Shown here: positions 4,996-29,135 of the stretch, one piece after another | How the letters are laid out: each line of letters opens with the position of its first letter | Numbering within the stretch: the first letter of the stretch is position 1 | From: an uncultured Tateyamaria sp. | GTDB lineage: Bacteria; Pseudomonadota; Alphaproteobacteria; Rhodobacterales; Rhodobacteraceae | Direction: 5' to 3' | Assembly (NCBI RefSeq): GCF_947503385.1 | Contig: NZ_CANNDO010000008.1 | Span: 62,001-126,000, forward strand | Length of the DNA: 64,000 nucleotides | Position numbers and translations under genes: made by a program | Notes under the pieces: model-generated | The model's input: the letters and a program-made list of their open reading frames with translations, nothing else | The model's database searches: none | What the model was told of the DNA's origin: nothing

Positions 4996-5001
4996 GACAT
5001 C

Positions 5002-5048
5002 AGCTTAGCCCACGGTGCGGCGTGCGGTCACTTGCCAAAAGGTACTAG
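5002..5048 (-). promoter_or_regulatory. Putative promoter/activator site of the response-regulator operon
   Basis: Read on the minus strand, the site TAGTACCTTTTGGCAAG is followed 36 bp later by a TAAGCT hexamer, the same geometry as other motif copies in this cluster. The hexamer lies only a few bases from the annotated start codon, so the mRNA would be leaderless or the true start lies further in. It is a divergent variant of the motif. Confidence 0.4.
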
Positions 5049-5061
5049 ACCCTAACGTAAA

Positions 5062-5085
5062 GCGCCCCCGCAGATGCAGGGGCGC
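5062..5085 (-). terminator. Hairpin terminator of the alcohol dehydrogenase gene
   Basis: GCGCCCC and GGGGCGC arms flank a 10-base loop. On the minus strand the stem is followed by a short TTTA stretch. It lies about 20 bp past the alcohol dehydrogenase stop codon and before the regulator operon, as expected of a rho-independent terminator with a weak U-tract. Confidence 0.6.
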
Positions 5086-5106
5086 CAGAGCGTGCTTTGT
5101 GTTGGA

Positions 5107-6873
5107 TCAGTTGGCGGAGGCCAGCTGTTTGGGCAGGCGGAAGGTCCAGAGCGTACCACCTTGGTTCAGGTAGTTGACCTTCTTGGCCACCTCACCACCC
5201 CAGAGCGGAACCGCGCCACCCCAGCCGGAGATCACGGTGACGTATTGTTCGCCGTCCTGTTCCCATGTCACGGGCTGACCCACGATGCCGGACCCGGTCT
5301 GGAACGACCACAGCACGTCGCCGGTGTCGTCGTCAAAGGCGATAAAGCGACCGTCCGGCGTGCCGGTGAACACAAGGCCACCCGCCGTTGTCATCACGCC
5401 ACCCCAAAGCGGTGCGTCGTTCTTGAATTCCCACTTCACGTCGCCGGTGTCGGGGTCGATCGCCTTGAGGCTGCCGATGTGGTCTTCGTAGTTGGGCTTG
5501 ATGGTAAAGCCCGAGCCCAGATAGGCGGCACCTTTCTTGTAGGTGATCGGCTCGTTCCAGATGTCCATGCCCCATTCGTTCGAGGGCACGTAGAAGTTGC
5601 CGGTGCGCTGGCTGAACGCCATCGGCATCCAGTTCTTGCCCCCGAGGAAGGACGGCGAGGCAAAGACGACTTCGCCCTTTTTGCCATCGGCAGCCGCAGC
5701 CGGATCACCGGGGCGGTTTTCCTCGTTGTAGATCGGGCGGCCATTCTCATCGAGACCTGCGGCCCACGAGATGTCCTTGACGAAGGGCACGCCACGGACG
5801 AATGCGCCGTCGTCGCGGTTCAGCACGTAGAAAAAGCCGTTGCGGTCCGCCGTGGCAAAGCGTTTTTCGCCTGCCCGGTTTTCATAGGCCACAACTTCGT
5901 TGACGCCGTCATAGTCCCAGCCCTCGCGCGGTGTGGTCTGGAAGTGCCACTTGATTTCACCGGTTGCAGGGTCGATGCCGATCCGCGAGGCGGCATAAAG
6001 GTTGTCGCCCGAGCCGTCATTGTTCTGGCCCGCATCCCGCAGCCAAGAATTCCAAGGCGCAGGGTTGCCGGTGCCAAAGACCAGCGTGTCGGTGTCCGCG
6101 TCATAGGACCCGCCCAGCCACGTGGCGCCGCCGCCGGTTTTCCACATGTCGCCCGGCCATGTCGCGTTCAGCGTGCCGGTCATGGTGCTTTCTTCGCCGT
6201 TGAGCATCCCCATGTGACCTTCGATCACGGGGCGGTCCCAGACGAGTTCGCCGGTTTCGGCGTCACGCGCCTGCACGGCACCGACGATGCCAAACTCACC
6301 ACCCGAATTGCCGGTGATGATCAGGCCGTTCACGATCAGCGGTGCAGCAGTATAGCTGTAGCCCGCCTTGTAGTCGGCGATTTTCTTGTTCCAGACGGTG
6401 TCGCCCGTCTTGGCATTCAGCGCCACGATGCGCGCGTCCAGCGTGCCGAAATAGATATTGTCGCCATAGATGGCCGCGCCGCGGTTGACCACGTCACAGC
6501 AGGGCAGGATGCCTTCGGGCAGGCGGGCGTCATATTGCCAAATCTCCTGACCGGTTTTCACGTCGATGGCGTACATCCGGCTGTAGGAGCCGGTGATATA
6601 CATGACACCGTCATGCACGATGGGCTGTGTTTCCTGCCCGCGCTGTTTCTCACCGCCCAGCGAAAAGGCCCACGCCGGAACCAGATTGTCCACGTTGTCC
6701 TTGTTCAGTATGTCGAGCGGCGAATACCGTTGCAGGTGGCGGCCCATGCCGTTGGTCAGAACGTCCCCGGTGCTTGCCGTGTCGTTTGCCAGCATCTCTT
6801 CGGTGACGCCTTCTGCGAATGCAGACGTCGCCGCAAGGATGCCCGCGACGGTAAGCGCAATAAATCTGTTCAT
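5107..6873 (-). CDS. PQQ-dependent alcohol dehydrogenase (methanol/ethanol family, ExaF/PedH type)
   Basis: Periplasmic quinoprotein of 588 residues with an eight-bladed propeller fold and a Sec signal peptide ([20 protein letters not shown]). Key features are the vicinal disulfide Cys125-Cys126 ([10 protein letters not shown]), metal ligands Glu193 (GGEFG) and Asn270 (GNPAPWN), and catalytic Asp320 with Asp322 in WDYDG. The extra aspartate two residues after the catalytic one is the known signature of lanthanide-dependent enzymes; calcium enzymes carry Ala, Ser or Thr there. The N-terminal [18 protein letters not shown] stretch and the loop after GNPAPWN resemble ethanol dehydrogenases (ExaA/PedH/ExaF) more than XoxF. 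The start at 6873 has a GGAGG site; the upstream in-frame extension lacks coding character. Likely oxidises ethanol or methanol and passes electrons to the cytochrome c at 14087. Confidence 0.95.
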
Positions 6874-6992
6874 ATCTTTTCCTCCCAAGACCCGTTGGTG
6901 GGCAGTTCTCGCAAAGGCGTGCCGTGCGCACTGCGCAGCCTTCGCCCTGCTGATGATTATTCGTGCAAAAGGGGTGCACAGGTATTGCACAA

Positions 6993-7012
6993 TGGTCGTA
7001 AGACCCCAAAGA
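6993..7012 (-). promoter_or_regulatory. Putative activator site upstream of the alcohol dehydrogenase
   Basis: On the minus strand the sequence AAGGTCTTTGGGGTCTTACG lies about 120 bp upstream of the alcohol dehydrogenase start, in the divergent intergenic region. It shares the CTTTGG core with the cluster motif and contains the near-palindrome GGTCTTACGACC when extended by two bases. It is weaker than the sites at 7030 and 7620. Confidence 0.4.
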
Positions 7013-7029
7013 CCTTGACAGGAACCCCG

Positions 7030-7070
7030 CGACTTTGGTCGCAGAGCGACTCGATCCGGCACGTCATATC
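7030..7070 (+). promoter_or_regulatory. Promoter with shared motif, upstream of gene 7093
   Basis: The element CGACTTTGGTCGCAGAG (7030-7046) is followed 36 bp from its start by an ATATCC-like -10 region and then the ribosome-binding site of the gene at 7093. This is one of the strongest copies of the motif shared by the PQQ/alcohol units. Confidence 0.6.
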
Positions 7071-7092: not shown

Positions 7093-7614
7093 ATGAAATT
7101 CGCAGCACCTATCGTGCTGGCATTTGTGGCCGCTGCCGCCGCAGCGGAGCCACAGGGCGTCTATCTTGAGTCGCAGGATGGGACGCGGGTAAAGATTGCC
7201 ACAGTAGAGGTGTCGGGCAGTGGCGACTACACGGTCGAGATGGCTGAGGCCCCCTTTGCCGATCACTTCCTGTCGATGCGCCCGTTTCGCTGTCTCGAAG
7301 GGCCGGCCAAGCATTGGTGCCACGTCCCCTACCCTTACGAGATCGCGCGCAATATCGGCGCGGACCTGACCGATCTGGAATATGACTTTCTCTTTCTGTG
7401 GAAGGGCGCCACGGAATACGGGATCAACATGTGGAACGGGGTCTACTACAAACTCGACCGCGCGGACGGGCGTCTGATCGGCACCCTGCACGAAATGGAC
7501 ATGGACCTGCTGTCCGCCCCGCCGGGGGCGGGGGACCTGCGCCCCTTGCGGGCCAGTGACCTGCACGAAAGTGACCCGGACAGCCATTGGCTGCCACGCA
7601 TGATCATCGAATGA
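7093..7614 (+). CDS. Conserved hypothetical exported protein of the alcohol oxidation cluster
   Basis: Protein of 173 residues with a signal peptide ([20 protein letters not shown]). I do not recognise a characterised family. The mature part has two cysteines close together ([19 protein letters not shown]) that could form a disulfide or bind metal, and a tryptophan/tyrosine-rich segment ([10 protein letters not shown]). The start at 7093 has a GGGAGGA site. It is transcribed divergently from the alcohol dehydrogenase and carries the shared promoter motif, so a periplasmic role in alcohol oxidation or its regulation is likely; its biochemical function is unknown. Confidence 0.75.
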
Positions 7615-7619
7615 ACCTG

Positions 7620-7661
7620 CGGCTTTGGTCGCATTCCGGCGCGGGGCGAACCTGCTAGGCT
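7620..7661 (+). promoter_or_regulatory. Promoter with shared motif, upstream of ABC binding-protein gene
   Basis: CGGCTTTGGTCGCATTC (7620-7636) with TAGGCT at 7656-7661, 36 bp from the motif start. It lies between two co-directional genes and shows that the binding-protein gene at 7684 can be transcribed separately. Confidence 0.6.
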
Positions 7662-7683: not shown

Positions 7684-8655
7684 ATGACGTTTTTCAAAGC
7701 AGTGACCGGGGCGGTGATCGCCGCTGTTGTGGCCACGGTTGGCTGGGCCGACACACCGACGCTGCGCGCGTCTGTGCTCAAGTTCGGGACCGTCAATTGG
7801 GAACTGAACACGATCCGGCACCACGGCTTCGACGCCGCGCATGGGTTCAACTTGCAGGTACAGGGTGTCGCCGGTGGATCAGCGGCCAAGGTCGCGTTTC
7901 AAGGCGGCGAGGCGGATGTGATCGTGTCGGACTGGCTGTGGGTCGCACGTCGGCGCGCGGCGGGCAAGGACTACGTGTTCATCCCGTATTCCAAGGCGGT
8001 GGGCGGTGTGATGGTGCCCGCTGACAGCCCCGCACAGTCGCTGGCCGACCTTGCCGGGGCCAAGATCGGCATCGCCGGTGGACCATTGGACAAAAGCTGG
8101 CTGATTTTGCAGGCCTATGCGGAACAGGCCCACGGCCTCGATCTCAAGGCAGACACCGAACAGGTGTTTGCCGCGCCGCCGCTGATCTTCAAATCCGCCC
8201 TGTCGGGCGAGGTGGGGGCGGCCATCAACTTTTGGCACTTCCTCGCTAAGATGGAGGCGTCGGGGATGCGCAAGCTGGTCGATGTGGCCGATGCCGCCAC
8301 GGCGCTGGGGTTGGACCCGGATACGCCACTGCTGGGCTACGTGATCAAGGGCGAGATGCTGCGCGACAATCCCGACCTTGTACACGGCCTTGCAGCCGCC
8401 TCGCGCGATGCCAAGGATCTGTTGGCCGCGAATGATGCCGAATGGGACCGCTTGCGCGACAAGATGAACGCCAAGACGGATGCGCAGTTTGCCGCCCTCA
8501 AGGCCGGGTTCCGTGCAGGCATTCCCGCGCCGGGCCCGGTGGACGAGGATGCCGCCGCCCGGATGCTGGCGCTGATGGTCGCGCTTGGCGGTGACGATCT
8601 TGTGGGCGAGGCGCGCACGTTGCCCGCAGGTACATTCCTCCAACCGGGCAGCTAG
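7684..8655 (+). CDS. ABC transporter substrate-binding protein, NitT/TauT (SsuA/NMT1) type
   Basis: Exported protein of 323 residues with a signal peptide ending at VGWADT. The body has the SsuA/NMT1 fold pattern: [37 protein letters not shown], and [15 protein letters not shown]. It starts from a strong GGGGAGG site, and its stop codon abuts the GTG start of the ATPase gene. The likely permease partner is at 23144, about 14 kb away within the same regulon. The substrate is unknown; because the system is linked to a PQQ enzyme with a lanthanide signature, a role in uptake of a cofactor-related compound or metal chelate is possible but unproven. Confidence 0.85.
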
Positions 8656-9321
8656 GTGGCGGCACCGCTTCTTGATCTGCGACTGCGCGCGCTGGACCAT
8701 CAGGGCACGCCCGTGCTGCGGGACGTGGCGCTGCAAATGGCGCGGGGCGAGACTTTGGCGCTGGTGGGGCCGTCAGGTATTGGCAAGTCGTCCTTGCTGC
8801 GTGTGATCGCGGGGATCGACGCAGGACAGGATGCAATCTGCACGCTGCGCGGCACCTGTGCGATGGTGTTTCAGGAGCCCACCCTGCTGCCGTGGCGGTC
8901 CGTGGCCGACAACATCCGCGTGACGACTGGCGTGTCGGACAAAGTGGTCGACGCCGCGCTGCGTGACGTCGGGCTGGATGGGCGTGGCGCGGATTATCCG
9001 AGCCAATTGTCCCTCGGCCAGCAGCGCCGGTTGTCGCTGGCCCGCGCCTTTGCGGTGACGCCCGACCTGCTGTTGTTGGATGAGCCGTTTGTGTCGCTGG
9101 ACCCCGAACTGGCGCAGGAGATGATGGCGCTGTTTGCGCAGCTGCGGGCGCAGCACGACGTGGCCACGATCCTTGTGACCCACGTGGCGGACGAGGCGCA
9201 AAAGCTGGCGAGCCGCATCGTGACACTGGGCGGCAGCCCCGCGACGATCACCGACGACGTTCAGAACGACGGGGCGTATTTCCAGTTGTCGGCATCCGGC
9301 GTGACCTCGTCGAGGTCGTAG
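8656..9321 (+). CDS. ABC transporter ATP-binding protein (NitT/TauT type)
   Basis: ATPase of 221 residues starting at GTG directly after the binding-protein stop. Walker A is GPSGIGKSS, the Q-loop is FQEPTLLPW, the signature is LSLGQQRRLSLARAF and Walker B is LLLLDEPF, followed by the H-loop VTHVADEA. It pairs with the binding protein at 7684 and probably the permease at 23144. Its 3' end overlaps the convergent Sel1-repeat gene by about 60 bp. Confidence 0.9.
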   Translation: MAAPLLDLRLRALDHQGTPVLRDVALQMARGETLALVGPSGIGKSSLLRVIAGIDAGQDAICTLRGTCAMVFQEPTLLPWRSVADNIRVTTGVSDKVVDAALRDVGLDGRGADYPSQLSLGQQRRLSLARAFAVTPDLLLLDEPFVSLDPELAQEMMALFAQLRAQHDVATILVTHVADEAQKLASRIVTLGGSPATITDDVQNDGAYFQLSASGVTSSRS

Positions 9322-9824: not shown

Positions 9825-10616
9825 TCAGCCACGCCGCCCGATCCGCGTGCGCGCCGGGTCATAGCCGATGAGCGCGGCAGCAGCGAAGAGGCCCGCCGCC
9901 AGCACCGTCCAAAGCAGCGCCATTCCGCTCCATTCGACATAAAGCGCAAAGCGGATCAGCTCGACCGCGTGGGTAAACGGGTTGAGCGCGCAAATGTCGT
10001 GCAGCAGTTCCGAGCTTTCGGCCATTTTCCACAGCGGGTAGAGTGCGGAAGACAGAAAGAACATCGGAAAGATGACAAAGTTCATCACCCCCGCAAAATT
10101 CTCCAACTGCTTGATAAAACTCGACAGGACCAGCCCCAGAGCCCCAAGCATCAGCCCCGCCACGACCAGCGCGGGTAGCACAGTGACGTATCCCCAGCCC
10201 GGCATTGTGATGCCAAAAAGTGCGGCAATTGCCAGAAACGCATAGACTTGCAGGATCGAGATCGCGGTGGACCCCAACAGCTTGCAAAACAGCAACCATC
10301 CACGCGGCAAGGGTGAGGTCAGCAACAGCTTCATCGACCCCATTTCGCGGTCGTAAACAAGGCTCAGAGACGACTGCATCCCGTTGAACAGCAGGATCAT
10401 GCCGCAGAGGCCGGGCACGATATAGGTCTCGTAGGTGATATAGGTCTGGTAGGGCGGAATGATGCTGAGGCCGAGGGCCGCGCGGAACCCGGCGGCAAAC
10501 ACCAACAGCCAGACCAAGGGCCGCACAAGGGCCGCCACAAACCGCTCGCGCTGGTGGATGAACCGCAGGGCCTCGCGCGTCACAATCGCGTGCAGGGAGG
10601 TGAGATAGGCGGTCAT
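9825..10616 (-). CDS. ABC-2 type transporter permease, PQQ alcohol system (PedC-like)
   Basis: Integral membrane protein of 263 residues with about six hydrophobic segments. It is an ABC-2 (exporter) permease of the set that accompanies quinoprotein alcohol dehydrogenases. The conserved YREMGSMKLLLTSP-like segment (here YDREMGSMKLLLTSPLPR) is typical of ABC-2 permeases. The start overlaps the ATPase stop by 4 bp. Order in this operon: binding protein, beta-propeller, small exported protein, ATPase, permease. The transported substrate of ped-type systems is not established. Confidence 0.88.
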   Translation of the reverse strand: MTAYLTSLHAIVTREALRFIHQRERFVAALVRPLVWLLVFAAGFRAALGLSIIPPYQTYITYETYIVPGLCGMILLFNGMQSSLSLVYDREMGSMKLLLTSPLPRGWLLFCKLLGSTAISILQVYAFLAIAALFGITMPGWGYVTVLPALVVAGLMLGALGLVLSSFIKQLENFAGVMNFVIFPMFFLSSALYPLWKMAESSELLHDICALNPFTHAVELIRFALYVEWSGMALLWTVLAAGLFAAAALIGYDPARTRIGRRG

Positions 10617-11329
10617 GCCGCCGCTCCGGTCAGCGTCAGGAACCGATCCTGCAAAGTCGTATCGCCCGCAATGTCACGCGCCGTGCCAGTGGCCAGTATC
10701 CGCGCGCGGTGCAGGATGATCAGGGCATCGTCGGGCTGTACCTCGTCCGTCAGATGCGTCGCCCAGAGGATCGTCTTGCCCTGCCCCGCCAGCCCATGGG
10801 CATAGTCTGTGATCGACGCGCGCGCCGCAGCATCCAGACCCACGGTTGGCTCATCCAGCAGCAGGACGCTCGGGTCATGCAGCAATGCGCGGGCAATCTC
10901 GGTCCGGCGACGGTGGCCGCCATTGAGGCTGCGCGCTTTCTCCCCTGCCCGCTCGCGCATGTCGAGTTGTTCAAGGGCCGCATCAATGCGGCTGCGCGCG
11001 GTGCGACCCGACAGCCCGTGCAGCGCCGCAAAGTAGCTGAGGTTCTGCAGCACCGTCAGATCCAGGTCCAGCGTGGTCTGCTGAAACACGATCCCCAGTT
11101 CGGCCAAGGCTGCACGCGGTGCAGCGCGCAGGTCGTGACCGGCGATGCGGATCGTGCCCGAGGGCGCCACAAACAGCCGGGTCAGCAAATTGAACAGGGT
11201 CGATTTGCCCGCGCCGTTTGGACCCAGCAGCGCACAGAACGTGCCTGCGGCAACGCTGAACGACACATCGTCCAGCGCCTGCTTTGGTCCGTAAGCATAG
11301 CTGAGGCCCTGCGCCTCAAGTCCGGTCAT
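10613..11329 (-). CDS. ABC transporter ATP-binding protein, PQQ alcohol system (PedB-like)
   Basis: ATPase of 238 residues with Walker A GPNGAGKSTLF, Q-loop FQQTTLDLDLT and Walker B VLLLDEPTVGLD. The signature region reads LNGGHRRRTEIARAL, a departure from LSGGQ that is typical of this exporter subfamily. It overlaps both neighbours by 4 bp, so it is translated with the permease and the small exported protein. Confidence 0.92.
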   Translation of the reverse strand: MTGLEAQGLSYAYGPKQALDDVSFSVAAGTFCALLGPNGAGKSTLFNLLTRLFVAPSGTIRIAGHDLRAAPRAALAELGIVFQQTTLDLDLTVLQNLSYFAALHGLSGRTARSRIDAALEQLDMRERAGEKARSLNGGHRRRTEIARALLHDPSVLLLDEPTVGLDAAARASITDYAHGLAGQGKTILWATHLTDEVQPDDALIILHRARILATGTARDIAGDTTLQDRFLTLTGAAA

Positions 11330-11778
11330 TTGATGGTGATGTCCAACCGTTGCGTTTCGCCGGTCGTGCCGGGGATCTTGATGTAATATGCACCGGGTTT
11401 GATCGCGACGAAACCAATCTCCATCTCGCCCGCCTCGTCGAACTCGATACTGTCAAGACCAAGGGGGCGGATCTCAAGCCCTTCCACCACGATCTCGTCG
11501 ATCCAGATCGCACGAAAAAACTCAGGTCCCACCAGCGCCAGTTCCTGACTGCCATCGCCCTGAATTTCGAACTCGTAATAGGTGCCCGATTGCAGCACCC
11601 ACGGGCCGTCGGGCGCGATGGGTTCACCTGCGGACAGGATGATGGGGGGCAGGACTTTCTTGTTCTTGCCGCCCAACAGGCCTGCGGCGCCGTAGCTGGG
11701 GCCGTCATCATCGTTGTCGGCAAATGCGGTGCTGGGCATGGTAAGCGCCAGCGCGGCGATCAGGGCGAGGGTCTTCAT
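11326..11778 (-). CDS. Conserved hypothetical exported protein of the PQQ ABC operon
   Basis: Protein of 150 residues with a signal peptide (MKTLALIAALALTMPSTAFA) followed by an acidic linker (DNDDDGPSYG). The rest looks like an all-beta, cupredoxin-like sandwich (GTYYEFEIQGDGSQ, KPGAYYIKIPGTTGETQ), but no histidine or cysteine copper ligands are visible in the positions of a blue copper protein. It overlaps the ATPase start by 4 bp. Function unknown; a periplasmic accessory role is inferred from the operon. Confidence 0.75.
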   Translation of the reverse strand: MKTLALIAALALTMPSTAFADNDDDGPSYGAAGLLGGKNKKVLPPIILSAGEPIAPDGPWVLQSGTYYEFEIQGDGSQELALVGPEFFRAIWIDEIVVEGLEIRPLGLDSIEFDEAGEMEIGFVAIKPGAYYIKIPGTTGETQRLDITIK

Positions 11779-11801
11779 CTGTGTCCTCCTGAAAATCTGG
11801 A

Positions 11802-12764
11802 TTAGGATCCGGTGGGCCGGAACGCGGCCCCCCAGGGAAAGCGGCCCACCTTGATCGACTTGATCGCCGTGCGTTTGGCCACGTCGATCACCGTGACGTC
11901 GCCGGAAACACCATTGGTGGTGAACAGCAGCGACCGGTCCGCGTTAAAATCCATGTGCCAGACGCGACGCCCGACAAGGATGTAATCCTCCACCTCATAG
12001 GTGTCGGCATTGACAACAGCCACGTGGTTCGAGGGGCCAAGCGCCACATAGGCGTGCGTGTCCCCAGCCGTAAATTCGAACCCAACGGGCTGCACCCGGT
12101 CGGGGTGTACGCCCTGCACTTCAAACTCGATCTTGGCCTTTTCGCCTTGGGTGGCCACGTCAAAAACGGTGAGCGTGCCGCCAATCTCTGAACTCACCCA
12201 CATCTCGGTCCCGTCTTTGACGAATTCGGCGTGGCGCGGGCGGCTGTCGACAAGCGTGTTGGCAAACAGTTCCTGCGTTTCGGTGTCAATCCAGTGGGCC
12301 ATGTTGGTGGTCTCGGACGTGGTAATCGCGATTCTGCCATCGGGGCTGACGGCCATCCCTTCGGGTTCCACGCCCACGTCGATCTGGGCGATAACCTTGC
12401 GGGTTTCGGTGTCCACCACGGTGGTGATCGCGTCGTCCTCATTCGCGATGTAAAGGTGGCGGTCATTGGGGTGCAGCACGAACTGTTCCGGGTCATCGCC
12501 CGAGGGCAATTCATGCAGGATCTCGCCCGAATTGGGGTCCATCACCTGCACCGCGTTGCTGTCGGAGGCGCAGATATAGACCCGGCTGTAATCCTTGGAA
12601 AAGATGATGCCGCGCGGGCGTTCGCCCGTTTCATAGGTGCGCACCACCTCCAGTGTCTCGGTGGAGATGACCGAAATGGTATCGTCCTTTTCATTCGTCA
12701 CCCAAATCTCACCCGCCATCGCGGTGGTGGACAGGAGCGTCAGCAGTGCAGTCAGTCGGATCAT
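11802..12764 (-). CDS. PQQ-dependent catabolism-associated YVTN beta-propeller protein
   Basis: Exported protein of 320 residues (signal peptide MIRLTALLTLLSTTAMAGE) built from repeated YVTN/WD-like blades such as IWVTNEKDDTISVISTETLE, LYIANEDDAITTVVDTETRK and AYVALGPSNHVAVVNADTYE. It matches the beta-propeller protein that regularly accompanies PQQ alcohol dehydrogenase ABC genes. The start at 12764 gives an ATGA overlap with the preceding gene. Probably periplasmic and protein-binding; the exact role is unknown. Confidence 0.9.
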   Translation of the reverse strand: MIRLTALLTLLSTTAMAGEIWVTNEKDDTISVISTETLEVVRTYETGERPRGIIFSKDYSRVYICASDSNAVQVMDPNSGEILHELPSGDDPEQFVLHPNDRHLYIANEDDAITTVVDTETRKVIAQIDVGVEPEGMAVSPDGRIAITTSETTNMAHWIDTETQELFANTLVDSRPRHAEFVKDGTEMWVSSEIGGTLTVFDVATQGEKAKIEFEVQGVHPDRVQPVGFEFTAGDTHAYVALGPSNHVAVVNADTYEVEDYILVGRRVWHMDFNADRSLLFTTNGVSGDVTVIDVAKRTAIKSIKVGRFPWGAAFRPTGS

Positions 12765-13939
12765 TGGAACGCCTCGCATTTGCTTTCGGGACGGTCGAGC
12801 CCCAGGCTGTCTAGTTCATTGATCTGGTGCAGGAACCCATCCAGCGGGGCCTGCGCCACCAGCGCACGGGGGTGCGCCACGGCAATGGGCTGGCGCAACT
12901 GCCCGTTCCAGTCGCGATAGGTCAGCGGACGCCCCTTGAAACCGGCCAGTTCAAACGCGTCGGACAGGATATAGGCGCGCAGCGTCTCGGGGTCGGTGGC
13001 ATTTGTCCGCGTCAGCGCCTCGCCCAATGTGCGCAGGGCGGCCCACGCGGCATAGTCCTGCGCCGTCATTTCGCGCTGGTGCTGTTCCTCGAACCGGGAT
13101 TGTAACTGCGCTGCCCCCCATTGTTCGATCACCGGGGACCAGCCCACGGCGGTTAACCCTTCGGACCCCACCACGGGTCGTGCTTCCCACGTGTTATATA
13201 GCACATAACGCCCGAAATCATGCACCTCATCGGCAATGATCAGTGCGTCGTAGTCGCCAAAGTCTTGGGTGAACAGCGGCACCTCCTGACTGGCGGTGCG
13301 GCGCATATCGGCGTCAAACGCCCATTCCTTTTCCGCCTCAAGCGACAGGCCGAACTTGGTCAGGGATCGGCGCATCGCCTGCGCATAGCTGATATCGGCG
13401 GGATGTGTGCCGGTGATCATCACCAGATCGTCCCAGCGCCGCTTGACCAGCACCTGCGCCAGCGCATCCGTGCGCATCGCGTCTGACGCGAGCGTGTGAA
13501 ACAGGTTGGCCCGGCAGGCCGTATCACGCAGGTCCAGATCACCCGCGGATGTGTTGAACAGCATCGCACCCGCTGCCTCGGGCAAATCCGCAATGGCCAG
13601 CAGATCGGATGCGGCGGCATCAAGCACGAGGTAGGGTGAGGCCGCCAGAAGGTCGCGCGCCGCAGCCAGCGGGTCGTCCCCTTCGGCCACGTCGACGCGC
13701 GTCATCTCATAGGTCTGTCCCAGAAACTTGCCCGTGGTCAGGTTGTCCGCCAGCCCCGTTTCCGCACCTGCGAGACCGTTTTTGTCCGGGATGGGATCGA
13801 GGTTCGACAGCGTGGGCGGCAGGGGCTGGGCCACCCGCAGATATCCAATGCGCAACACCGTCTCCGCCATGGCGGGTGCGGCCAGCGCAAGACTGGCGCA
13901 CGCCGCCAAAACGAGATGTCTGAAGCTGGAATTTCCCAT
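12761..13939 (-). CDS. ABC substrate-binding protein, PQQ-dependent alcohol dehydrogenase system
   Basis: Exported protein of 392 residues (signal peptide MGNSSFRHLVLAACASLALA). It has the branched-chain-amino-acid-type periplasmic fold seen in the ped-type system: ETVLRIGYLRVAQPLPPTLS at the start and VLVKRRWDDLVMITGTHPAD in the middle. It is the first gene of the operon running to 9825. The start at 13939 is chosen for the signal peptide. It is divergent from the cytochrome gene; the shared intergenic region carries the motif in both orientations. Confidence 0.88.
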   Translation of the reverse strand: MGNSSFRHLVLAACASLALAAPAMAETVLRIGYLRVAQPLPPTLSNLDPIPDKNGLAGAETGLADNLTTGKFLGQTYEMTRVDVAEGDDPLAAARDLLAASPYLVLDAAASDLLAIADLPEAAGAMLFNTSAGDLDLRDTACRANLFHTLASDAMRTDALAQVLVKRRWDDLVMITGTHPADISYAQAMRRSLTKFGLSLEAEKEWAFDADMRRTASQEVPLFTQDFGDYDALIIADEVHDFGRYVLYNTWEARPVVGSEGLTAVGWSPVIEQWGAAQLQSRFEEQHQREMTAQDYAAWAALRTLGEALTRTNATDPETLRAYILSDAFELAGFKGRPLTYRDWNGQLRQPIAVAHPRALVAQAPLDGFLHQINELDSLGLDRPESKCEAFQ

Positions 13940-14785: not shown

Positions 14786-14789
14786 CGGC

Positions 14790-20934: not shown

Positions 20935-23039
20935 TCCGCAGCCACCTGTAATTTGCGCCCCTTCGCGGCAAGGATCAGCGGCACGCACTGCGCCTTGTCA
21001 TCGTGGATTGTCACGCAGTCGAGGCACTGGAAACATTCGGAATACTGAATCTCACCCGTTTTCTTGATCGCGCCATAGCTGCATTTGACCTTGCACAGTT
21101 GGCAGGGCGACCCGCATTCGGCCCGTCGCGCAATCCAGTCGCGGCCCCGCACCAGCCCGCCAATCGCCATGACGGCGCCCAGCGGGCACAGGTAGCGGCA
21201 GAATCCCTTGAACAGCACCATCGACACCAGCAGCAGACCCACCGCATAGGCCACATAATACCACTCGCGGACAAAGAACGTGGTGATCGCCGTCTTGAAC
21301 GGCTCCACTTCGATCGCCTTGTCCAACGCGGCAGGCACCGTGAACAACAACGCCACAAGCCCGGCCAACACGACATATTTCAGCCCCTTCAACCGCGCAT
21401 CCCAGAACGCATTGGGCTCGATCTGCGGCAGGTGTAAAAGGCGGCCCAGATGGTGCGCGAACTCCTGCAAGGCCCCAAACGGACACAGCCAGCCGCAAAA
21501 CAGCCCCCGCCCCCACAGCACAAACCCGAGGATCGACACACCCCAGACCACCAGCGAAAACGGATCATAGAGCAGGAAGGCATAGCTGCCGCCCTCAAGC
21601 GCTGCGCGCGCCACCGCCAGCGGCGTGGCAATCGACAATTGCCCCTGCCCCCACCAGCCGATGAACACCGTGACAAAGGCCAGAATGCCCAGCCGCAGCG
21701 GCGTGAACAACGGATGCCCCGCCAGCCGGTTCATCCCGAACAACAGCAGCACAACCAAGCCCGCCAGAAACCCCCCAAGCACGATCAGATCCGTCGCCCG
21801 GTTGCGCAGCGCATCGACCCAAGGCGGCGCGGGCTTGATGATCTCGGGCCGGGAATAGAACCGCTCTGGCGTGACATGGGGCACGTCCAGCGTCACCGAT
21901 CCGATTTCGGGCTGGAAGGATCCGTGTTCGCGCAGCGCCTTGACCTTGAGCGTCCATTCCGCCGTTGGATCAAAGCCAAGCCGCCGGTCCGTCCGCAAGA
22001 TCAGAGCGGCACCATCGTAAACCGCGTTGTGCAGATCATTGGGCAGCGCATCGTTCAGTTCCACGTAGATATCACTGTCGCGGAACGCGATGGGAAAGCC
22101 GCCCTGTTCCGCGCTGATCAGATCGGGTGCGGTGTTGCGCACAAATTCTTCGGTCACCAGCCCGTGCCGCGCCGTCTCGATCAGCAGCACGGGTTCGTCC
22201 GTGTCCGCAATCTCCATAAAGTCCCGTAACTCTTCGAACCCGCTCTTGCTGAGCACCGCGCGGGCCACGGACGGCGCGCCGATATCCACCACCCACAGGT
22301 CAAGGAAGGTGCCATCGGGATCGTCCTTGGCCTCCGGGTCGTCATCCTCCCACAAGGTGCCGTCAAAATGCGCGTCCATCTCGGCGTTGGTCACGATCTT
22401 GCGGGTCACGATACCCTGCGCGACCAGATCGTCCCATGTCAGGTCCTCGTCATAGCCCGTGTTGGGATAGGCGGGCGGGCCGGACGATATGCCGCCCATC
22501 TTTTCGCGCGCGACCTGCAAGGCGGCGGCCAGAATGCTTTCATGGGCGATGCGCACCGACGCGGTGCCCTTGGTCACCCCGTCGAGGTAAACCAGCGCCG
22601 AGCCTTCGCTGCCCGCGCCATAGGGCGAGCCAACCACCAGCGAATCCGAAATGGAATGGCCCCGGTATTGCTTGAAAAAGTCGTAAAACAGCTTCTCCGG
22701 CAGGCCCGAGACAAAGATCGGCTCGTTATGCGAGATCAACTGCACATCCAGAAACCGACCCTCCAGATCGAGCACCACCAGCATGTTGATCGACGCACCG
22801 GAAAAGCCGGGCAGCGGCGCCATCGGCTCGGTCTCGAACACGTATCCCGCCTCGGCCCCGCCGGAGTTCAGCAGTTGCCAGACTCCCTTGTCATTGATCG
22901 GCTCGCCCAGCGACATGGGCGGCACGATATAGGGTGCCAGCACCTCGCGCTGGAGCGGTTCGGCCACTGCCGAAACGACACCCATACACCACAGTATGGA
23001 TGCCAGCAGCACAGCCCTTATGGAATTGATCAACCACAT
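20931..23039 (-). CDS. NosR/NirI-family membrane iron-sulfur flavoprotein
   Basis: Protein of 702 residues. A signal peptide is followed by a periplasmic FMN-binding-type domain (about 90-185; the stretch GVTKGTASV aligns with the flavinylation motif), a further periplasmic region, several membrane helices from about 400, CGWLCPFGALQE and CRYLCPLGAVMA cysteine motifs, and a C-terminal ferredoxin-like part with CGSPCQLCKVKC and CFQCLDC. NosR passes electrons from quinol to nitrous oxide reductase, but no nosZ is present. The upstream region shares the alcohol-regulon motif, so this copy probably serves electron transfer linked to that pathway. Confidence 0.9.
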   Translation of the reverse strand: MWLINSIRAVLLASILWCMGVVSAVAEPLQREVLAPYIVPPMSLGEPINDKGVWQLLNSGGAEAGYVFETEPMAPLPGFSGASINMLVVLDLEGRFLDVQLISHNEPIFVSGLPEKLFYDFFKQYRGHSISDSLVVGSPYGAGSEGSALVYLDGVTKGTASVRIAHESILAAALQVAREKMGGISSGPPAYPNTGYDEDLTWDDLVAQGIVTRKIVTNAEMDAHFDGTLWEDDDPEAKDDPDGTFLDLWVVDIGAPSVARAVLSKSGFEELRDFMEIADTDEPVLLIETARHGLVTEEFVRNTAPDLISAEQGGFPIAFRDSDIYVELNDALPNDLHNAVYDGAALILRTDRRLGFDPTAEWTLKVKALREHGSFQPEIGSVTLDVPHVTPERFYSRPEIIKPAPPWVDALRNRATDLIVLGGFLAGLVVLLLFGMNRLAGHPLFTPLRLGILAFVTVFIGWWGQGQLSIATPLAVARAALEGGSYAFLLYDPFSLVVWGVSILGFVLWGRGLFCGWLCPFGALQEFAHHLGRLLHLPQIEPNAFWDARLKGLKYVVLAGLVALLFTVPAALDKAIEVEPFKTAITTFFVREWYYVAYAVGLLLVSMVLFKGFCRYLCPLGAVMAIGGLVRGRDWIARRAECGSPCQLCKVKCSYGAIKKTGEIQYSECFQCLDCVTIHDDKAQCVPLILAAKGRKLQVAAE

Positions 23040-23046: not shown

Positions 23047-23089
23047 AGCCTATTCCGCTGCGCCCCGCGCCCCTATGCGACTAAGGTAT
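23047..23089 (-). promoter_or_regulatory. Promoter with shared motif, upstream of NosR-like gene
   Basis: Minus-strand site ATACCTTAGTCGCATAGGG (23089 to 23071) with TAGGCT at 23052 to 23047, 37 bp from the site start. The hexamer is only 7 bp from the annotated ATG, so transcription may start at or very near the start codon. The plus strand of the same site could also serve the permease gene at 23144. Confidence 0.5.
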
Positions 23090-23143
23090 GACCGGCGGCC
23101 AACAACGCTTTGGACGCGATCACAAATGTGACAGGTTCGGGAC

Positions 23144-24615: not shown

Positions 24616-25701
24616 CTAGCGTCGGTATACAAACTCCGGCGGCGCGACCTCTCGCACTTCTTCGGTCAAAAGCGCATCCAGCGCCGCGCGACCGGCAGAT
24701 TTGCGGCACACCGGGTCGGGCGCCGATGCGTCCCCCAGCACTGCCATCGCCTGACAGCGGCATCCGCCAAAATCAATGTCGCGCCGTTCGCATCCCTGAC
24801 ACAGGTCCGGCAACCAATCCGTCCCGCGATAGGCGTTGAACGCCGACCCGTCATACCAGATATCCGCCAGTTTGCGCGCGGTCACGTTGTCAAAGGTCAG
24901 ATGCGGGATGGTTTCAGCGGCATGGCAGGGCAGCACCGTGCCATCCGGCGTGACGTTCAGTCCGGTGGACCCCCAGCCATTCATGCACGCCTTGGGGAAA
25001 TCCGAGTAGTAGTCCGGCGGCACGAAATCGATAACCAACTGCCCCCTGAGCGATTCCACCGCCCGCGCAACGGTCTTTTTCGCCGTCTCCACCTGCGCCC
25101 GACTGGGTTGCAGCGCGGCACGGTTGACCAGCGCCCAGCCCTGAAACTGCACGCAGGCAATCTCGATCCGCCGCGCACCAAGGCGCAGCGCCATGTCGAT
25201 GGTCGCAGGCAGGTCGTCGAGGTTCTCGCGGTGCATCACCGCGTTCAGCGTCAGCGGAAAGCCGATGTCGGATATGATCTCGGCCACGTGCATCTTGCGG
25301 TCAAACCCACCGTCATAACCGCCGATGCGGTCCGCCATCGCCGCCGTGACGCCTTGCAGGGACAGCTGCACATGGTCCAGCCCCGCATCGTCCAGCGCGC
25401 GCAGGCGGCGTTCATTCAGCCCGACGCCCGAGGTGATAAGGTTGGTGTATAACCCCGCCTCCCGCGCCGCCGCCACAAGTGCCTCCAGATCACGCCGCGA
25501 CGCAGGCTCACCCCCCGAAAGGTGCAGCTGCAACACGCCCAGCTTGGCCGCCTGTACAAAGACATCCGCCCACGCCTCGGTGCTCAATTCGGCATCGCGC
25601 GCCAGCAACTCGGTCGGGTTCGAGCAATAGGGGCAGGCCAGCGGACAACGGTGCGTCAGCTCGGCCAGCATCGCCATGGGGGGATCAATGCGGACGGACA
25701 T
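24616..25701 (-). CDS. pqqE: PQQ biosynthesis radical SAM peptide cyclase PqqE
   Basis: Radical SAM enzyme of 361 residues that forms the Glu-Tyr carbon-carbon link in PqqA. The [4Fe-4S]/SAM motif is CPLACPYCSNP (about 19-29), and the C-terminal SPASM-type cysteines include LCQGCERRDIDFGGCRCQA. The start at 25701 (MSVRIDPP) fits the family and overlaps pqqD by 17 bp. It works with PqqD as the peptide chaperone. Confidence 0.97.
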   Translation of the reverse strand: MSVRIDPPMAMLAELTHRCPLACPYCSNPTELLARDAELSTEAWADVFVQAAKLGVLQLHLSGGEPASRRDLEALVAAAREAGLYTNLITSGVGLNERRLRALDDAGLDHVQLSLQGVTAAMADRIGGYDGGFDRKMHVAEIISDIGFPLTLNAVMHRENLDDLPATIDMALRLGARRIEIACVQFQGWALVNRAALQPSRAQVETAKKTVARAVESLRGQLVIDFVPPDYYSDFPKACMNGWGSTGLNVTPDGTVLPCHAAETIPHLTFDNVTARKLADIWYDGSAFNAYRGTDWLPDLCQGCERRDIDFGGCRCQAMAVLGDASAPDPVCRKSAGRAALDALLTEEVREVAPPEFVYRR

Positions 25702-25963
25702 GCACCATCCCCCGATCCCGCAGGTCTTCGACAAACGCCACCACATCCGGCGCGATCACGTCCAACGGCGCGTCATAGACCTGCGCCAGCGCCTCCGAAA
25801 TCTCCGACAGGCTCGCCTCTCCGTCCAGTTGCCCCAACACCGCCGTGCCCACCTGATCCAGCACCAGCACCCGCTCGGGTCCCAGCAGCACATCCACCTT
25901 GCGCACCGCATCGAACTGCGTCCGCACGCCGCGCGGCAGGAATGGCACGTCCTCAGGGCTCAT
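25685..25963 (-). CDS. pqqD: PQQ biosynthesis peptide chaperone PqqD
   Basis: Protein of 92 residues of the PqqD (RRE) family; PqqD binds the PqqA peptide and presents it to PqqE. The segment VLVLDQVGTAVLGQLDGEAS matches the winged-helix core of the family. It overlaps pqqC by 4 bp and pqqE by 17 bp. It is a separate gene here rather than fused to pqqC as in some methylotrophs. Confidence 0.95.
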   Translation of the reverse strand: MSPEDVPFLPRGVRTQFDAVRKVDVLLGPERVLVLDQVGTAVLGQLDGEASLSEISEALAQVYDAPLDVIAPDVVAFVEDLRDRGMVHVRPH

Positions 25964-26706
25964 GCGGCGAGCCCCTCACCCGGTTGCCAGCCGCCGGGCG
26001 GAATGCGACCGGGTTCCACATAAGCCGACCACAGCGCGTCCAACTGTGCCCACAGCACCTCGGTCTTGAAAGTCAGCGCGCGCACGGCTGCGTCCTGATC
26101 GGGCCGCGTTACGGCGTGATCCATCACCCATTTCAGGCCAAAGGCCACGTCTTTGGGCGCCTCGTTCAGACGGTTCTGGAAATAGGACAGCGTGTCGGCA
26201 TTGGCGAACTCGTAATGCTCCAGCAGGCCCGCGATACGGTTCTTGTGGATGGCCGGTGCGAACAGTTCGGTCAGCGACGATGCCACGGCGGGCAACAGCG
26301 GCTCGTCCCGCACAAACCGCACATAGGCGTCAACGGCAAAGCGTGTGGCAGGCAGAATGCCCGCTTCGGACGCGACATAATCAGGGTCCAGCCCCACGCC
26401 CTCGGCCAGTTTCAGCCAACGGGCAATGCCGCCCTCGCCCGGGGCCGACCCATCGTGATCCTCGATCCGCGACCGCCACGCGCGGCGCAGGGCCGGATCG
26501 CTCACACGGGACATGAAAGCGGCGTCCTTCATCGGAATGCGCGTCTGGTAATAATACCGGTTGATCACCCACGCCCGCACCTGATCCGGCGTGCAATCGC
26601 CCGCGTGCAGCTTGTGGTGAAACGGGTGCTTGTCGTGATAGCGCGCGTCGCCAACGGCGCGCAACCGCGCCTCGAAGGCCTCGGCACTGTCAGGCTGATC
26701 GGTCAC
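25960..26706 (-). CDS. pqqC: Pyrroloquinoline-quinone synthase PqqC
   Basis: Protein of 248 residues, an all-helical oxidase that performs the last ring closure and eight-electron oxidation of PQQ. The family region YHDKHPFHHKLHAGDCTPDQ, then WVINRYYYQTRIPMKDAAFM, is intact. It overlaps pqqB and pqqD by 4 bp each. Confidence 0.97.
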   Translation of the reverse strand: MTDQPDSAEAFEARLRAVGDARYHDKHPFHHKLHAGDCTPDQVRAWVINRYYYQTRIPMKDAAFMSRVSDPALRRAWRSRIEDHDGSAPGEGGIARWLKLAEGVGLDPDYVASEAGILPATRFAVDAYVRFVRDEPLLPAVASSLTELFAPAIHKNRIAGLLEHYEFANADTLSYFQNRLNEAPKDVAFGLKWVMDHAVTRPDQDAAVRALTFKTEVLWAQLDALWSAYVEPGRIPPGGWQPGEGLAA

Positions 26707-27590
26707 AGCGTGATCTCCATCCCGTCAAAGGCAATTTCCCACCCGCGCGCCAGCACCTCCGCCCGCTCGGGCGCGTCCGGTTGCAGGATGGGGTTTGTGT
26801 TGTTGATGTGGATGAACAGCTTGCGCCCGCCCACATTGTCCAGCCGCGCCAGCGACCCCAGGTCCCCGTTCAACGGCACATGGCCCATGCGCGCGCCGGT
26901 TTTCTCGCCCGTGCCGGTGCGCTGCATGTCGTCATTGTTCCAAACCGTGCCATCAAACAGCAGCAGGTCCACGGCACCGAGCCGGTCCAGCAACCAGTCG
27001 GGAATGGCGGCGCATCCCGGCACATAGGCCGCCCGCGTCGTGCCGTCCTCCAGCATCAGGCCCACGGTCTGCTCTCCCACTTCTTCAAGGTTCAGCGTCT
27101 CCCCTTCGAGAAACAGCGCCACCTTTCCCGGCACGGCAAAGGGGGTGACTGTCAGGCCGGGCACCGGTTCAAACGGCACATCCAGCGTGATCCGGTGCTG
27201 CGCCACCAGTGCAGCGTCCAGCACCCCAAACACCGAATTGCTCTGCAAAATTTCCAGCCCCGCCGCCGTGGCAAAGACATCGAACGGCGTCTTTTCCCGC
27301 AAGGTCAGCAGGCCCGCGATATGGTCAATATCGCCGTTGGTCAGCACCACCGACGCAATGGGCGAGCCGCGCAATCCCGGCGGGTGCATCTGCGCACAGG
27401 CATCCACCTGCGCCCGGATGTCGGGCGAGGCGTTCAGCACCGCCCACGCAGCCCCGTCCACCGACACGGCGACCGACGATTGCGTCATGCGCGGGATCAC
27501 ACCCTTGCGCGCGTCCGTGCAGTTGCGGCAGCCACAATTCCATTGGGGCAGCCCCCCGCCGGCGGCTGCCCCAAGAACAATCAATCTCAT
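26703..27590 (-). CDS. pqqB: PQQ biosynthesis protein PqqB
   Basis: Protein of 295 residues with a metallo-beta-lactamase fold. It shows the N-terminal family motif GGGLPQWNCGCRNCTDARKG and the NGDIDHIAGLL metal-site region. PqqB is an iron-dependent hydroxylase acting on the processed Glu-Tyr precursor. It follows pqqA by 15 bp and overlaps pqqC by 4 bp. Confidence 0.97.
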   Translation of the reverse strand: MRLIVLGAAAGGGLPQWNCGCRNCTDARKGVIPRMTQSSVAVSVDGAAWAVLNASPDIRAQVDACAQMHPPGLRGSPIASVVLTNGDIDHIAGLLTLREKTPFDVFATAAGLEILQSNSVFGVLDAALVAQHRITLDVPFEPVPGLTVTPFAVPGKVALFLEGETLNLEEVGEQTVGLMLEDGTTRAAYVPGCAAIPDWLLDRLGAVDLLLFDGTVWNNDDMQRTGTGEKTGARMGHVPLNGDLGSLARLDNVGGRKLFIHINNTNPILQPDAPERAEVLARGWEIAFDGMEITL

Positions 27591-27605
27591 GTAAGTCTGT
27601 GTGGC

Positions 27606-27713
27606 TTAGATCACGTCGCGCTCGGCGCCGCGGTCATCGTCCTCACCGGGGCCATACATGTTGATCTCCATGCCGCACTTCACTTCGCGCGCTTTGGGTT
27701 TTGTCCATGCCAT
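27606..27713 (-). CDS. pqqA: PQQ precursor peptide PqqA
   Basis: A gene of 35 codons. The peptide begins MAWTKPKAREVKCGMEINMY and continues with an acidic tail. Glu16 and Tyr20 in EINMY are the residues that PqqE cross-links to build PQQ. A strong GGAGG site precedes the ATG at 27713. It is first in the pqqABCDE operon. Confidence 0.96.
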   Translation of the reverse strand: MAWTKPKAREVKCGMEINMYGPGEDDDRGAERDVI

Positions 27714-27741
27714 AACGAATTCCTCCTCTTTTGCCTGATCA

Positions 27742-27783
27742 CGATAACGGGGCAGCGGCGCGGGACATATGCGACTTTAGCCC
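27742..27783 (-). promoter_or_regulatory. Promoter with shared motif, upstream of pqqA
   Basis: Minus-strand site GGGCTAAAGTCGCATATGT (27783 to 27765) shares GGCTnnnGTCGCAT with the 7620 site. A GTTATCG -10 candidate lies at 27748 to 27742, about 36 bp from the motif start, and the pqqA ribosome-binding site follows. Confidence 0.5.
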
Positions 27784-27788
27784 TAGCC

Positions 27789-29135
27789 TCACTCGGACCA
27801 GACCGCCATCTTGCGGTCGATGGTCTTGCGCGAGACGCCCAGACGGCGGGCCGCCTCGGCCCGGTTGCCGTCACACAGGTCGAGCATCCGCAGGATGTGC
27901 CGCTGCACCACCAGATCAAGGTTTTCGATCGCCTGCGCCCCTGTCACACTGCCCCCGCCGGAAAACTCCTCCGGGAAAGCGCCCAGAATGACCGACCGTT
28001 CAATAAGGTTGCGCAATTCCCGCACATTGCCTGGCCATGCGTAGCGCCGCAGCTTCAGCAATGTTTCCTCGTCCAGTTCCAGCGACGGCATGGCAAGCGA
28101 GGCGGAAAACTGCGCCATGAAATGCGCGGCCAATTCAACGATATCGTCCATCCGGTCCCTGAGCGGCGGCATGTCGATCTTGACCACGTGGATGCGGTGA
28201 TACAGGTCCGCCCGGAACCGCCCCGCCGCCACTGACGCCTCGATGTCGTCATTGGTGGCAAAGAGGAACCGCACGTTCAGCGGGATCTCCCGCTCGGCAC
28301 CGACGGGCCGCACTTTCTTGTCCTCCAGCACGCGCAGCAGCGCGGCCTGCACCGTCTCGGGCATCTGCGCAATCTCGTCGAGCAGCAGCGTGCCGCCATC
28401 AGCCAGCAGCAACAGCCCCGGTTTCAGCCGGTCCTCCGCCTCGACCACGCCAAAAAGTTCATCGGCGAAACGGTCCGGCTGGATCGTGGCGCAGTTCACG
28501 GGAACAAAGGGCGCATCGGCCCGGTCCGACGCGTCGTGCAGGTGGCGCGCGGCCATCTCCTTGCCCGTGCCGCTGGCGCCGGTGAACAGCACCGGCGTGG
28601 GCAGCGGGGCCAGCCGTGCCAGCATCCCGCGCACATCCTCCATCGGTTCGGAATTGCCCAAAAGCTTGCCATGCCCTTGCCCCGACGACAGTTCGCGCCG
28701 CAGCAGCGTGTTGTCCCGTTGCAGGTATTTGCGGTCCAGCGTGCGGGCCACGGCGCTGAGAATTTGATTGGCGCGGAATGGTTTGAGGACAAAATCGCTG
28801 ACCCCTGCCCGCAGGGCTGCAATCGCTGTCTCAAGGTCCGCATAAGCGGTAATCAGGATCGCGTCAGCAAACAGGCCCTTGCGCTTTTGTTCCGTCAGCC
28901 AGTCAAGGCCCGTCCCCCCCGGCATCAGATTGTCGAAAATCACCAGATCATATTGCGCGTCATCCAGCGCCTTGGTCGCCTGCGCAGGCGATCCCACGGC
29001 CTCCACACGCTTGACCCGCGGCTCCAGCGTCTTGGTCAGAAAATGCCGCATCCCCGGCTCGTCATCAATCACGAGGATCGACGCGCCAGCCAGCGACTTG
29101 CCGTAGATATCCGGGGTGGAGCGCGGCGCGTTCAT
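27789..29135 (-). CDS. NtrC-family response regulator with AAA+ domain lacking GAFTGA
   Basis: Protein of 448 residues: receiver domain (phospho-acceptor in VIFDNLMPGGTG), central AAA+ domain with Walker A TGASGTGKE and Walker B GGTLLLDEI, and a C-terminal Fis-type helix-turn-helix (GNRAEAARRLGVSRKTID). The GAFTGA loop that contacts sigma-54 is missing; DELFGVVEAEDRLKPGLLLL occupies that place. Such regulators (R. capsulatus NtrC is the known case) act with the housekeeping sigma factor. It is last in the formate dehydrogenase operon direction; no kinase is adjacent. The start at 29135 follows a small membrane-protein gene by 4 bp. Confidence 0.92.
   Translation of the reverse strand: MNAPRSTPDIYGKSLAGASILVIDDEPGMRHFLTKTLEPRVKRVEAVGSPAQATKALDDAQYDLVIFDNLMPGGTGLDWLTEQKRKGLFADAILITAYADLETAIAALRAGVSDFVLKPFRANQILSAVARTLDRKYLQRDNTLLRRELSSGQGHGKLLGNSEPMEDVRGMLARLAPLPTPVLFTGASGTGKEMAARHLHDASDRADAPFVPVNCATIQPDRFADELFGVVEAEDRLKPGLLLLADGGTLLLDEIAQMPETVQAALLRVLEDKKVRPVGAEREIPLNVRFLFATNDDIEASVAAGRFRADLYHRIHVVKIDMPPLRDRMDDIVELAAHFMAQFSASLAMPSLELDEETLLKLRRYAWPGNVRELRNLIERSVILGAFPEEFSGGGSVTGAQAIENLDLVVQRHILRMLDLCDGNRAEAARRLGVSRKTIDRKMAVWSE

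Follow-up and report, generated by a model that had tools for sequence, protein, structure and literature searches.

The window examined here, 64,000 nucleotides of contig NZ_CANNDO010000008.1 from an uncultured Tateyamaria sp. of the Rhodobacteraceae (assembly GCF_947503385.1, positions 62,001 to 126,000, forward strand), contains genes for a pyrroloquinoline quinone (PQQ)-dependent alcohol dehydrogenase (ADH), PedABC, a second ATP-binding cassette (ABC) transporter, a Cox-like molybdenum hydroxylase, a NosR-like/ApbE pair and PQQ synthesis, together with an operon encoding a response regulator, a FIST-domain protein and a hybrid histidine kinase. Eight promoters of these units share an inverted repeat at a set distance from a -10 box, and this repeat is probably the operator of the response regulator. 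The features are as follows; SBP denotes a substrate-binding protein, and scores are those of the promoter model described below.

846..3065, minus strand: PAS hybrid histidine kinase, proposed partner of the regulator (profile matches)
3056..4261, minus: FIST-domain (NosP-like) protein, middle gene of the operon (Pfam FIST N and C)
4294..4995, minus: response regulator, proposed binder (Response_reg PF00072, 6.4e-23, and GerE PF00196, 2e-18, both above cut-off)
5026..5047, minus: variant element of the regulator promoter, TAGTACCTTTTGGCAAGTGACC; -10 TAAGCT at 5002-5007
5107..6873, minus: PQQ-dependent methanol/ethanol dehydrogenase (TIGR03075 above cut-off)
6983..7000, minus: PQQ-ADH operator, TACGACCATTGTGCAATA; score 23.1 (23.0 in an earlier model); -10-like AATAAT at 6956-6961
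7028..7045, plus: gene 7093 operator; score 22.5; -10 TATCCT at 7067-7072
7093..7614, plus: gene 7093, an open reading frame (ORF) with no family assigned and a start that looks, by eye, like a signal peptide
7618..7635, plus: operator of the SBP1-ABC ATPase unit; score 20.1; -10 TAGGCT at 7656-7661
7684..9321, plus: SBP1 (NMT1-like) and ABC ATPase genes (domain matches)
9825..13939, minus: PedC, PedB, a small gene, a PedA2-like propeller and a PedA1-like SBP (TIGR03861 and TIGR03864 above cut-off; Pfam)
13975..13992, minus: PedA1 unit operator; score 26.0; -10 TAGCGT at 13947-13952
14005..14022, plus: cytochrome c unit operator; score 18.3; -10-like TAGGAC at 14044-14049
14087..15692, plus: cytochrome c (PedF-like) and SBP_bac_3 genes (domain matches; orthologues annotated cytochrome c-550 PedF)
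15694..15711, plus: distal of two tandem coxG operators; operator part 13.5, with no -10 in register
15708..15725, plus: proximal coxG operator; score 18.7; -10 TAGGCT at 15747-15752
15778..20007, plus: molybdenum hydroxylase unit, coxG-like, coxS, coxL and coxM (Pfam for S, L and M; coxG as an ORF, its orthologue annotated carbon monoxide dehydrogenase subunit G)
20062..23039, minus: NosR-like Fer4_5 protein and ApbE (domain matches)
23074..23091, minus: NosR-like/ApbE unit operator; score 24.5; -10 TAGGCT at 23047-23052
24616..27713, minus: pqqA (27606-27713, an ORF by eye), pqqB, pqqC and pqqE, read outside 25747-25959 (PqqB, PqqC and PqqE NCBIfam models above cut-off)
27768..27785, minus: pqqA unit operator; score 20.8; -10 TATCGT at 27741-27746

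The element is an inverted repeat of 16-18 bp, TNCGACYW-WRGTCNAATA, with the additional AATA on its gene-facing side; ahead of gene 7093 it includes a perfect GCGAC-TTTG-GTCGC at 7029-7042. A sequence-only reading of the window had described a recurring core, CTTTGGTCGYR. The shared element is real, but the core is one half of the repeat, exact in the window at only three places (7033, 7623 and 15699, all on the plus strand) and mismatched at the other sites listed. The sites proposed at 7030, 7620, 15696/15710, 23089 (minus) and 27783 (minus) are all confirmed. Those at 13979 and 14018 are the two operators of the divergent PedA1/cytochrome region with their strands changed, since by -10 spacing the first fits PedA1 on the minus strand and the second the cytochrome on the plus strand. 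At 7012 (minus) there is no match of at least 8, and a strong ADH operator adjoins at 6983-7000. The promoter model combines the repeat with the -10, and its final version was built without any Tateyamaria locus at any step. Its eight best matches in the window, at 13975 (-), 23074 (-), 6983 (-), 7028 (+), 27768 (-), 7618 (+), 15708 (+) and 14005 (+), are the promoters of PQQ-ADH, gene 7093, SBP1, PedA1, cytochrome c, coxG, the NosR-like gene and pqqA; they score 26.0 to 18.3, the ninth match, at 48819, scores 13.0, and the same eight stood on top in earlier versions of the model.

The repeat was recovered independently of the window. A scan with the regulator provided 80 loci from other genomes (L009-L088, the best 80 of 558), the nearest of which are Tateyamaria with regulators 87-90% identical; all 80 have a match to the kinase, 78 to the FIST gene and 44 to the dehydrogenase, which reaches ≥700 bits in 42. 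Our own expectation-maximisation search was applied to 300-base regions ahead of the genes that head four operons (ADH, PedA1, SBP1 and coxG), with the window left out. Orthologues below set bit scores or aligning only past residue 60 were dropped, as were near-identical promoters (133 reduced to 112; in the Tateyamaria-free rerun, 109 to 92 and 118 to 98), and the cytochrome and gene 7093 promoters were excluded because these regions are shared with PedA1 and ADH. The best de novo motif, TACGACCAAaGTCCAATAcC, was estimated to occur in 96% of the 112 promoters, and six refined solutions were shifts of it. Motif discovery in relatives, which the sequence-only reading had suggested as a check, also returned the element when the seven Tateyamaria loci were removed, with an estimated occurrence in 98% of 92 promoters. 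As a plain string, CTTTGGTC or its complement lies upstream of SBP1 in 21/29 relatives, ADH in 16/42, PedA1 in 10/34, the cytochrome in 9/34, coxG in 9/28 and gene 7093 in 6/19. The string is rare or absent upstream of genes within operons (PedC 0/37, PedB 3/37, PedA2 0/36, SBP3 0/26) and absent upstream of the ABC ATPase (0/28), FIST (0/78) and kinase (0/79) genes.

A second conserved block, a TAnnnT -10 box, follows about 21 bp after the repeat. In 132 non-redundant sites aligned on the repeat centre (sites with fewer than 48 bases from centre to start codon and near-duplicates were dropped), T, A and T were enriched at +32, +33 and +37, and conservation between the blocks, from +13 to +31, did not exceed 0.15 bits per position; no conserved -35 was found in promoters aligned in this way. 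TANNNT started at +31, +32 and +33 in 16, 29 and 15 sites (60/132 together), at +34 in 4, and at the remaining offsets from +11 to +43 in only 0 or 1; without Tateyamaria the corresponding counts were 11, 27 and 13 of 112 sites. With the first base of the -10 placed at -12, the centre of the repeat falls near -43.5, and the repeat would span about -51 to -35 relative to the predicted start, in place of a -35. An operator that occupies the -35 position and keeps a set spacing to the -10, as computed here, is the layout of a class II site. The TAGGCT hexamer to which the sequence-only reading had drawn attention does occur at the set distance, at 7656, 15747 and 23047-23052 (-), but its frequency in the window is at chance level (8 found, 6.6 expected) and it is only one variant of the -10; the other five of the eight promoters have other TAnnnT-like boxes, as had also been proposed.

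The specificity of the element lies in its full form. With up to two mismatches, the core had 85 matches in the window compared with 64.8 +/- 8.2 in shuffled sequences (3 of 100 shuffles reached 85), and exact matches in the genome numbered 29, of which 26 lie outside the window, compared with 12 for the reversed pattern. The core string alone thus cannot carry the claim, because its counts sit near chance or recur elsewhere, and short-core counting was dropped as evidence. A 15-mer, GCGACTTTGGTCGCA, allowed up to three mismatches, was likewise not enriched genome-wide (145+139 compared with 138+129 reversed). Background DNA came from 20 other parts of this genome (396 kb of its 4.57 Mb), four from the contig of the window, ten around core-like matches and six picked freely. 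Scores of at least 18 for the full element with its -10 were reached 8 times in the 64-kb window, once in this background and never in reversed DNA. At lower thresholds the Tateyamaria-free model gave 3 background matches at ≥12 (11 reversed), 1 at ≥14 (3 reversed) and 1 at ≥16 (0 reversed). The sole strong background match (L147, position 499) lies inside an ORF (308-1702 of L147) and was discarded as a promoter. Recurrence elsewhere in the genome, with 26 outside copies, is a feature of the short core; in the 396 kb sampled, the full element has the single strong match.

Conservation extends beyond the loci used for training. A model trained only on the ADH-bearing loci (42) was applied to the 38 that lack ADH; there, 22 matches scored at least 16 (2 reversed), and a match of at least 14 was found in 24/38 test loci (4/38 reversed), including 15/15 of those holding another regulon head. 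Across all 80 loci, training loci included, 184 of 197 matches at ≥16 are correctly oriented toward a regulon gene that begins 15-260 bases downstream. The regulator is present on 134 plasmid records at 1e-50, and nine named plasmids were scanned with a model whose counts exclude Tateyamaria but whose sites were chosen with a matrix that had seen it. Of 43 matches at ≥14 on these plasmids, 42 lie upstream of annotated genes in the correct orientation, with 2 matches in reversed DNA; for six records, omitting Sulfitobacter CB2047, which is close to training loci, and two matchless records, the figures were 36/37 placed and 0 reversed. The targets were ADH, PedA1, pedF, SBP1, coxG, the NosR-like gene and pqqA, and also an aldehyde dehydrogenase gene in Leisingera, a winged-helix gene in Ruegeria and, in both, the gene of the regulator; a plasmid of Shinella, which belongs to another order, had four matches. 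The regulator is matched at 1e-30 in 144 of 295 genomes of the family. A search of the 295 for the strict pattern ACRACCAWWGTNNAATA gave 15 places in 12 genomes (reversed control, 1); 11 of these places are in 8 regulator-bearing genomes, and seven of the 11 are within 10 kb of the regulator. PedB exceeded its family cut-off in 22 genomes, and 19 regions were examined: one, L167, with a regulator 57% identical, had four matches at ≥14 and 0 reversed, and 13 others had together one weak match (3 reversed).

The proposed binder has solved relatives that include NarL (1a04) and DevR (3c3w), and the genome contains one close copy of it, the next best being 30% identical. Its recognition helix region, ETTVKAHVTAIMRKL, is almost the same as EATVKAHVTAIFRKL in an ErdR (L129) and ETTVKAHVSAILRKL in AgmR-like proteins. 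The FIST protein falls below the cut-off of the NosP family (NF041558; 361.9 compared with 450 bits), as does the kinase for NahK (NF041831; 406.7 compared with 1500). The promoter of this operon, where a weak site had been suggested at 5048 (-), fails the general operator matrix; the general operator was dropped there, and a distinct element conserved among regulator promoters was found in its place. A separate search of 73 non-redundant regulator promoters returned TaAGACCTTTtGgCAAGT in 70. This string matched at 13 or more of 18 positions in 63/80 regulator promoters (reversed string, 0), and 57 of those 63 have TANNNT at +32 or +33. Because the variant element retains one half-site and the same -10 distance, autoregulation is likely, that is, the regulator likely controls its own operon through this element. 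The -10 of this promoter begins exactly 12 bases ahead of the start codon (4995-5007, minus), and 35 of the 58 relatives counted share this spacing when their start codons are picked by script; this distance points to a leaderless regulator mRNA.

A close counterpart to the element is the ACTU motif of the CrbR/ErdR acetate regulators of Pseudomonas, described as a 17-bp imperfect inverted repeat reported at -52 to -36, directly ahead of the core promoter (PMC5715377). All 15 distinct ACTU sequences from the accessible portion of the table in that paper, most of them predictions that their authors call uncertain, scored 9.4-20.0 with the operator matrix, 11 on the printed strand and in the same register and 4 best as reverse complements. 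Among random 17-mers, 99.9% scored below 8.1 and the maximum of 20,000 was 13.1; shuffles reached the first five ACTU scores in 0-3 of 3000 cases. The four supported targets scored 16.2 (acs), 12.0 (actP operon), 12.5 (PFLU5625) and 18.4 (PFLU0110). CrbR/ErdR work with an SLC5-type kinase and control genes of acetate use, acs and actP among them, whereas the window concerns PQQ alcohol oxidation and pairs its kinase with a FIST protein, and the window regulator is far under the ErdR family cut-off (NF041830; 162.8 compared with 390 bits).

Taken together, we consider it probable (about 0.85) that the response regulator encoded at 4294-4995 binds the element as its operator. This protein would be the output of an operon of the FlhR/AfdR/RfdR type, made up of regulator, FIST and kinase genes, and would act as a class II activator of one regulon. 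A single regulon under this LuxR/NarL-type protein with class II-like sites, as the sequence-only reading had it, is thus supported as the best reading of the sequence. The regulator is favored as binder because the element is kept in promoters of the same genes in regulator-bearing relatives, is rare inside operons, keeps a fixed distance to the -10 and matches ACTU; we infer the identity of the binder, its phosphorylation, activation and autoregulation. A phosphorylated dimer would bind the two inverted half-sites, TNNGACYW, centred about 43.5 bp ahead of the transcription start where a -35 would be, and would recruit the housekeeping polymerase to a bare TAnnnT -10. Eight promoters of the same layout would then be switched on jointly, those of the PQQ alcohol dehydrogenase, cytochrome, PedABC, second ABC transporter, Cox-like molybdenum hydroxylase, NosR-like/ApbE unit, gene 7093 and PQQ synthesis, and through the variant element the regulator may also act on its own operon. 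The whole PQQ-linked alcohol oxidation pathway could in this way be switched as a single unit.

Several observations weigh against this assignment. The best score of the general matrix in the regulator promoter of the window is -1.5, and the cytochrome promoter has no good -10 (21.3 for its operator and -3.7 for its -10 in an earlier model). Of the 38 test loci, all with the regulator, 14 have no match at ≥14, and of test loci without any known regulon head only 9/23 have one. Operator-like matches lie inside the FIST coding region in 24/79 loci at ≥12 (15/79 with the full model at ≥12). Among family genomes, four strict-pattern places are in 4 genomes without the regulator, and 136 of the 144 in which the regulator is matched do not have the strict form. 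Where the regulator is a more distant relative, the element can be absent: no matches were found on the plasmid of Paracoccus pantotrophus, with 50% identity of the regulator, or on pSymB of Sinorhizobium meliloti, with 46%. Finally, five ped loci with an AgmR-like regulator (L168, L169, L171, L176 and L180) had 0 matches at ≥14 (2 reversed), despite an about equally similar helix, and operator-only matches there were no more numerous than in reversed DNA, except in L168 (3 compared with 1).

The FIST-internal matches recur near the end of the coding region (about 3147 in the window), five printed examples are without a -10, and they are probably conserved codons. On pSymB (L192) the regulator-FIST-kinase operon is near genes for glutathione-dependent formaldehyde dehydrogenase, fghA and a PQQ methanol/ethanol dehydrogenase, and its operator may have diverged from the model.

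The alternative that survives best, though we think it improbable, is a true operator bound by another transcription factor encoded elsewhere, with the neighbouring regulator controlling something else. It would accommodate the AgmR-type systems that have a similar recognition helix but no element, and the 4 of 12 family genomes with a strict element but no regulator. However, plasmids of several genera and of Shinella have the element close to the regulator, FIST and kinase genes, the element resembles the ACTU motif, whose regulator has a very similar helix, and in Ruegeria and Leisingera the regulator gene is itself preceded by canonical operators; the candidate binder encoded at 27789, an NtrC-like protein, was rejected, with a match in only 1/80 loci. 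Much less likely still, the conserved block could be the extended promoter of an alternative sigma factor, with no activator site. A block oriented with the gene at a fixed -10 distance fits that explanation, but the block is an inverted repeat whose centre is too distant for a -35, the -10 is the TAnnnT expected for the housekeeping sigma factor, and copies are in tandem ahead of coxG. Chance recurrence of a G+C-rich string in promoters, the least credible explanation, would suit the barely enriched short core but is refuted for the full element by the plasmid and background scans and by its de novo recovery from other genera.

With the regulator retained as the probable binder, its operon can be compared with known systems. 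FlhRS with orf2 in Paracoccus denitrificans, and AfdRS and RfdRS with afdT and rfdT in Rhodobacter sphaeroides, are described as a regulator and a kinase in one operon with a third gene between (PMC4776306). They are described there for formaldehyde/methanol oxidation genes, with RfdRS thought to repress. The window operon has this order of regulator, third gene and kinase, a likeness of arrangement, and its gene content fits control of alcohol/formaldehyde oxidation by systems of this kind. AgmR/ErbR/PedR1 of Pseudomonas is encoded near NosP-like and hybrid kinase genes and controls PQQ-ADH, ped and pqq genes (PMC12997753, PMC13390443). The window shares this content, with ped/exa-type and pqq genes beside the regulator, FIST and kinase genes and with models for PedB, PedC, PQQ-ADH and PqqB, C and E above cut-off, but AgmR-like regulators are only 40-41% identical to that of the window. 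We take the third gene of the FlhRS, AfdRS and RfdRS operons to encode a FIST protein. No operator sequence for FlhR, AfdR, RfdR or AgmR was found in the literature searched, which was available in part and did not include the original FlhR and RfdR papers, and a text search on the motif letters gave no relevant title among the matches listed. The predicted layout is also that of NarL/FixJ class II activators, two-domain response regulators whose operator near -43 replaces the -35. Residues 320-322 of the dehydrogenase are DYD, which we take to mark the lanthanide type. A section heading in a review calls PedA1A2BC a lanthanide transporter.

A broader, tentative proposal, to which we give slightly less than even odds, is that the FlhR-type and CrbR/ErdR-type branches have retained a single ancestral operator across Alpha- and Gammaproteobacteria, while the genes that it controls shifted from acetate use to PQQ-linked oxidation of alcohols, probably of the lanthanide type. 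The AgmR branch, which controls the homologous ped genes of Pseudomonas, would use a different site, and the regulon would travel self-contained, often on plasmids, together with the regulator and as many as eight or more matching promoters. The ACTU match makes conservation of the operator across two bacterial classes testable. For a regulator type known from formaldehyde/methanol work, the analysis provides a concrete candidate operator with coordinates and a scoring model. It also makes a single testable regulon of ADH, the Ped transporter, the molybdenum hydroxylase, the NosR-like/ApbE unit, gene 7093 and the genes for PQQ synthesis, and shared membership would give functional context to its less understood genes.

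Gene 7093 has its own operator and was matched in 19/80 regulator loci; an NCBIfam search gave no match for it, and a longer in-frame ORF had no Pfam match. In Leisingera thetidis (L194, 18215, minus), the aldehyde dehydrogenase gene has an element scoring 21.7 and is likely an extra regulon member. No permease gene was seen adjoining the SBP1-ATPase pair (7684-9321). A binding-protein-dependent (BPD) permease gene (23144-23908) is divergent from the NosR-like gene, and no operator facing it was found in the window; the pair and this permease may be a single transporter split over two loci.

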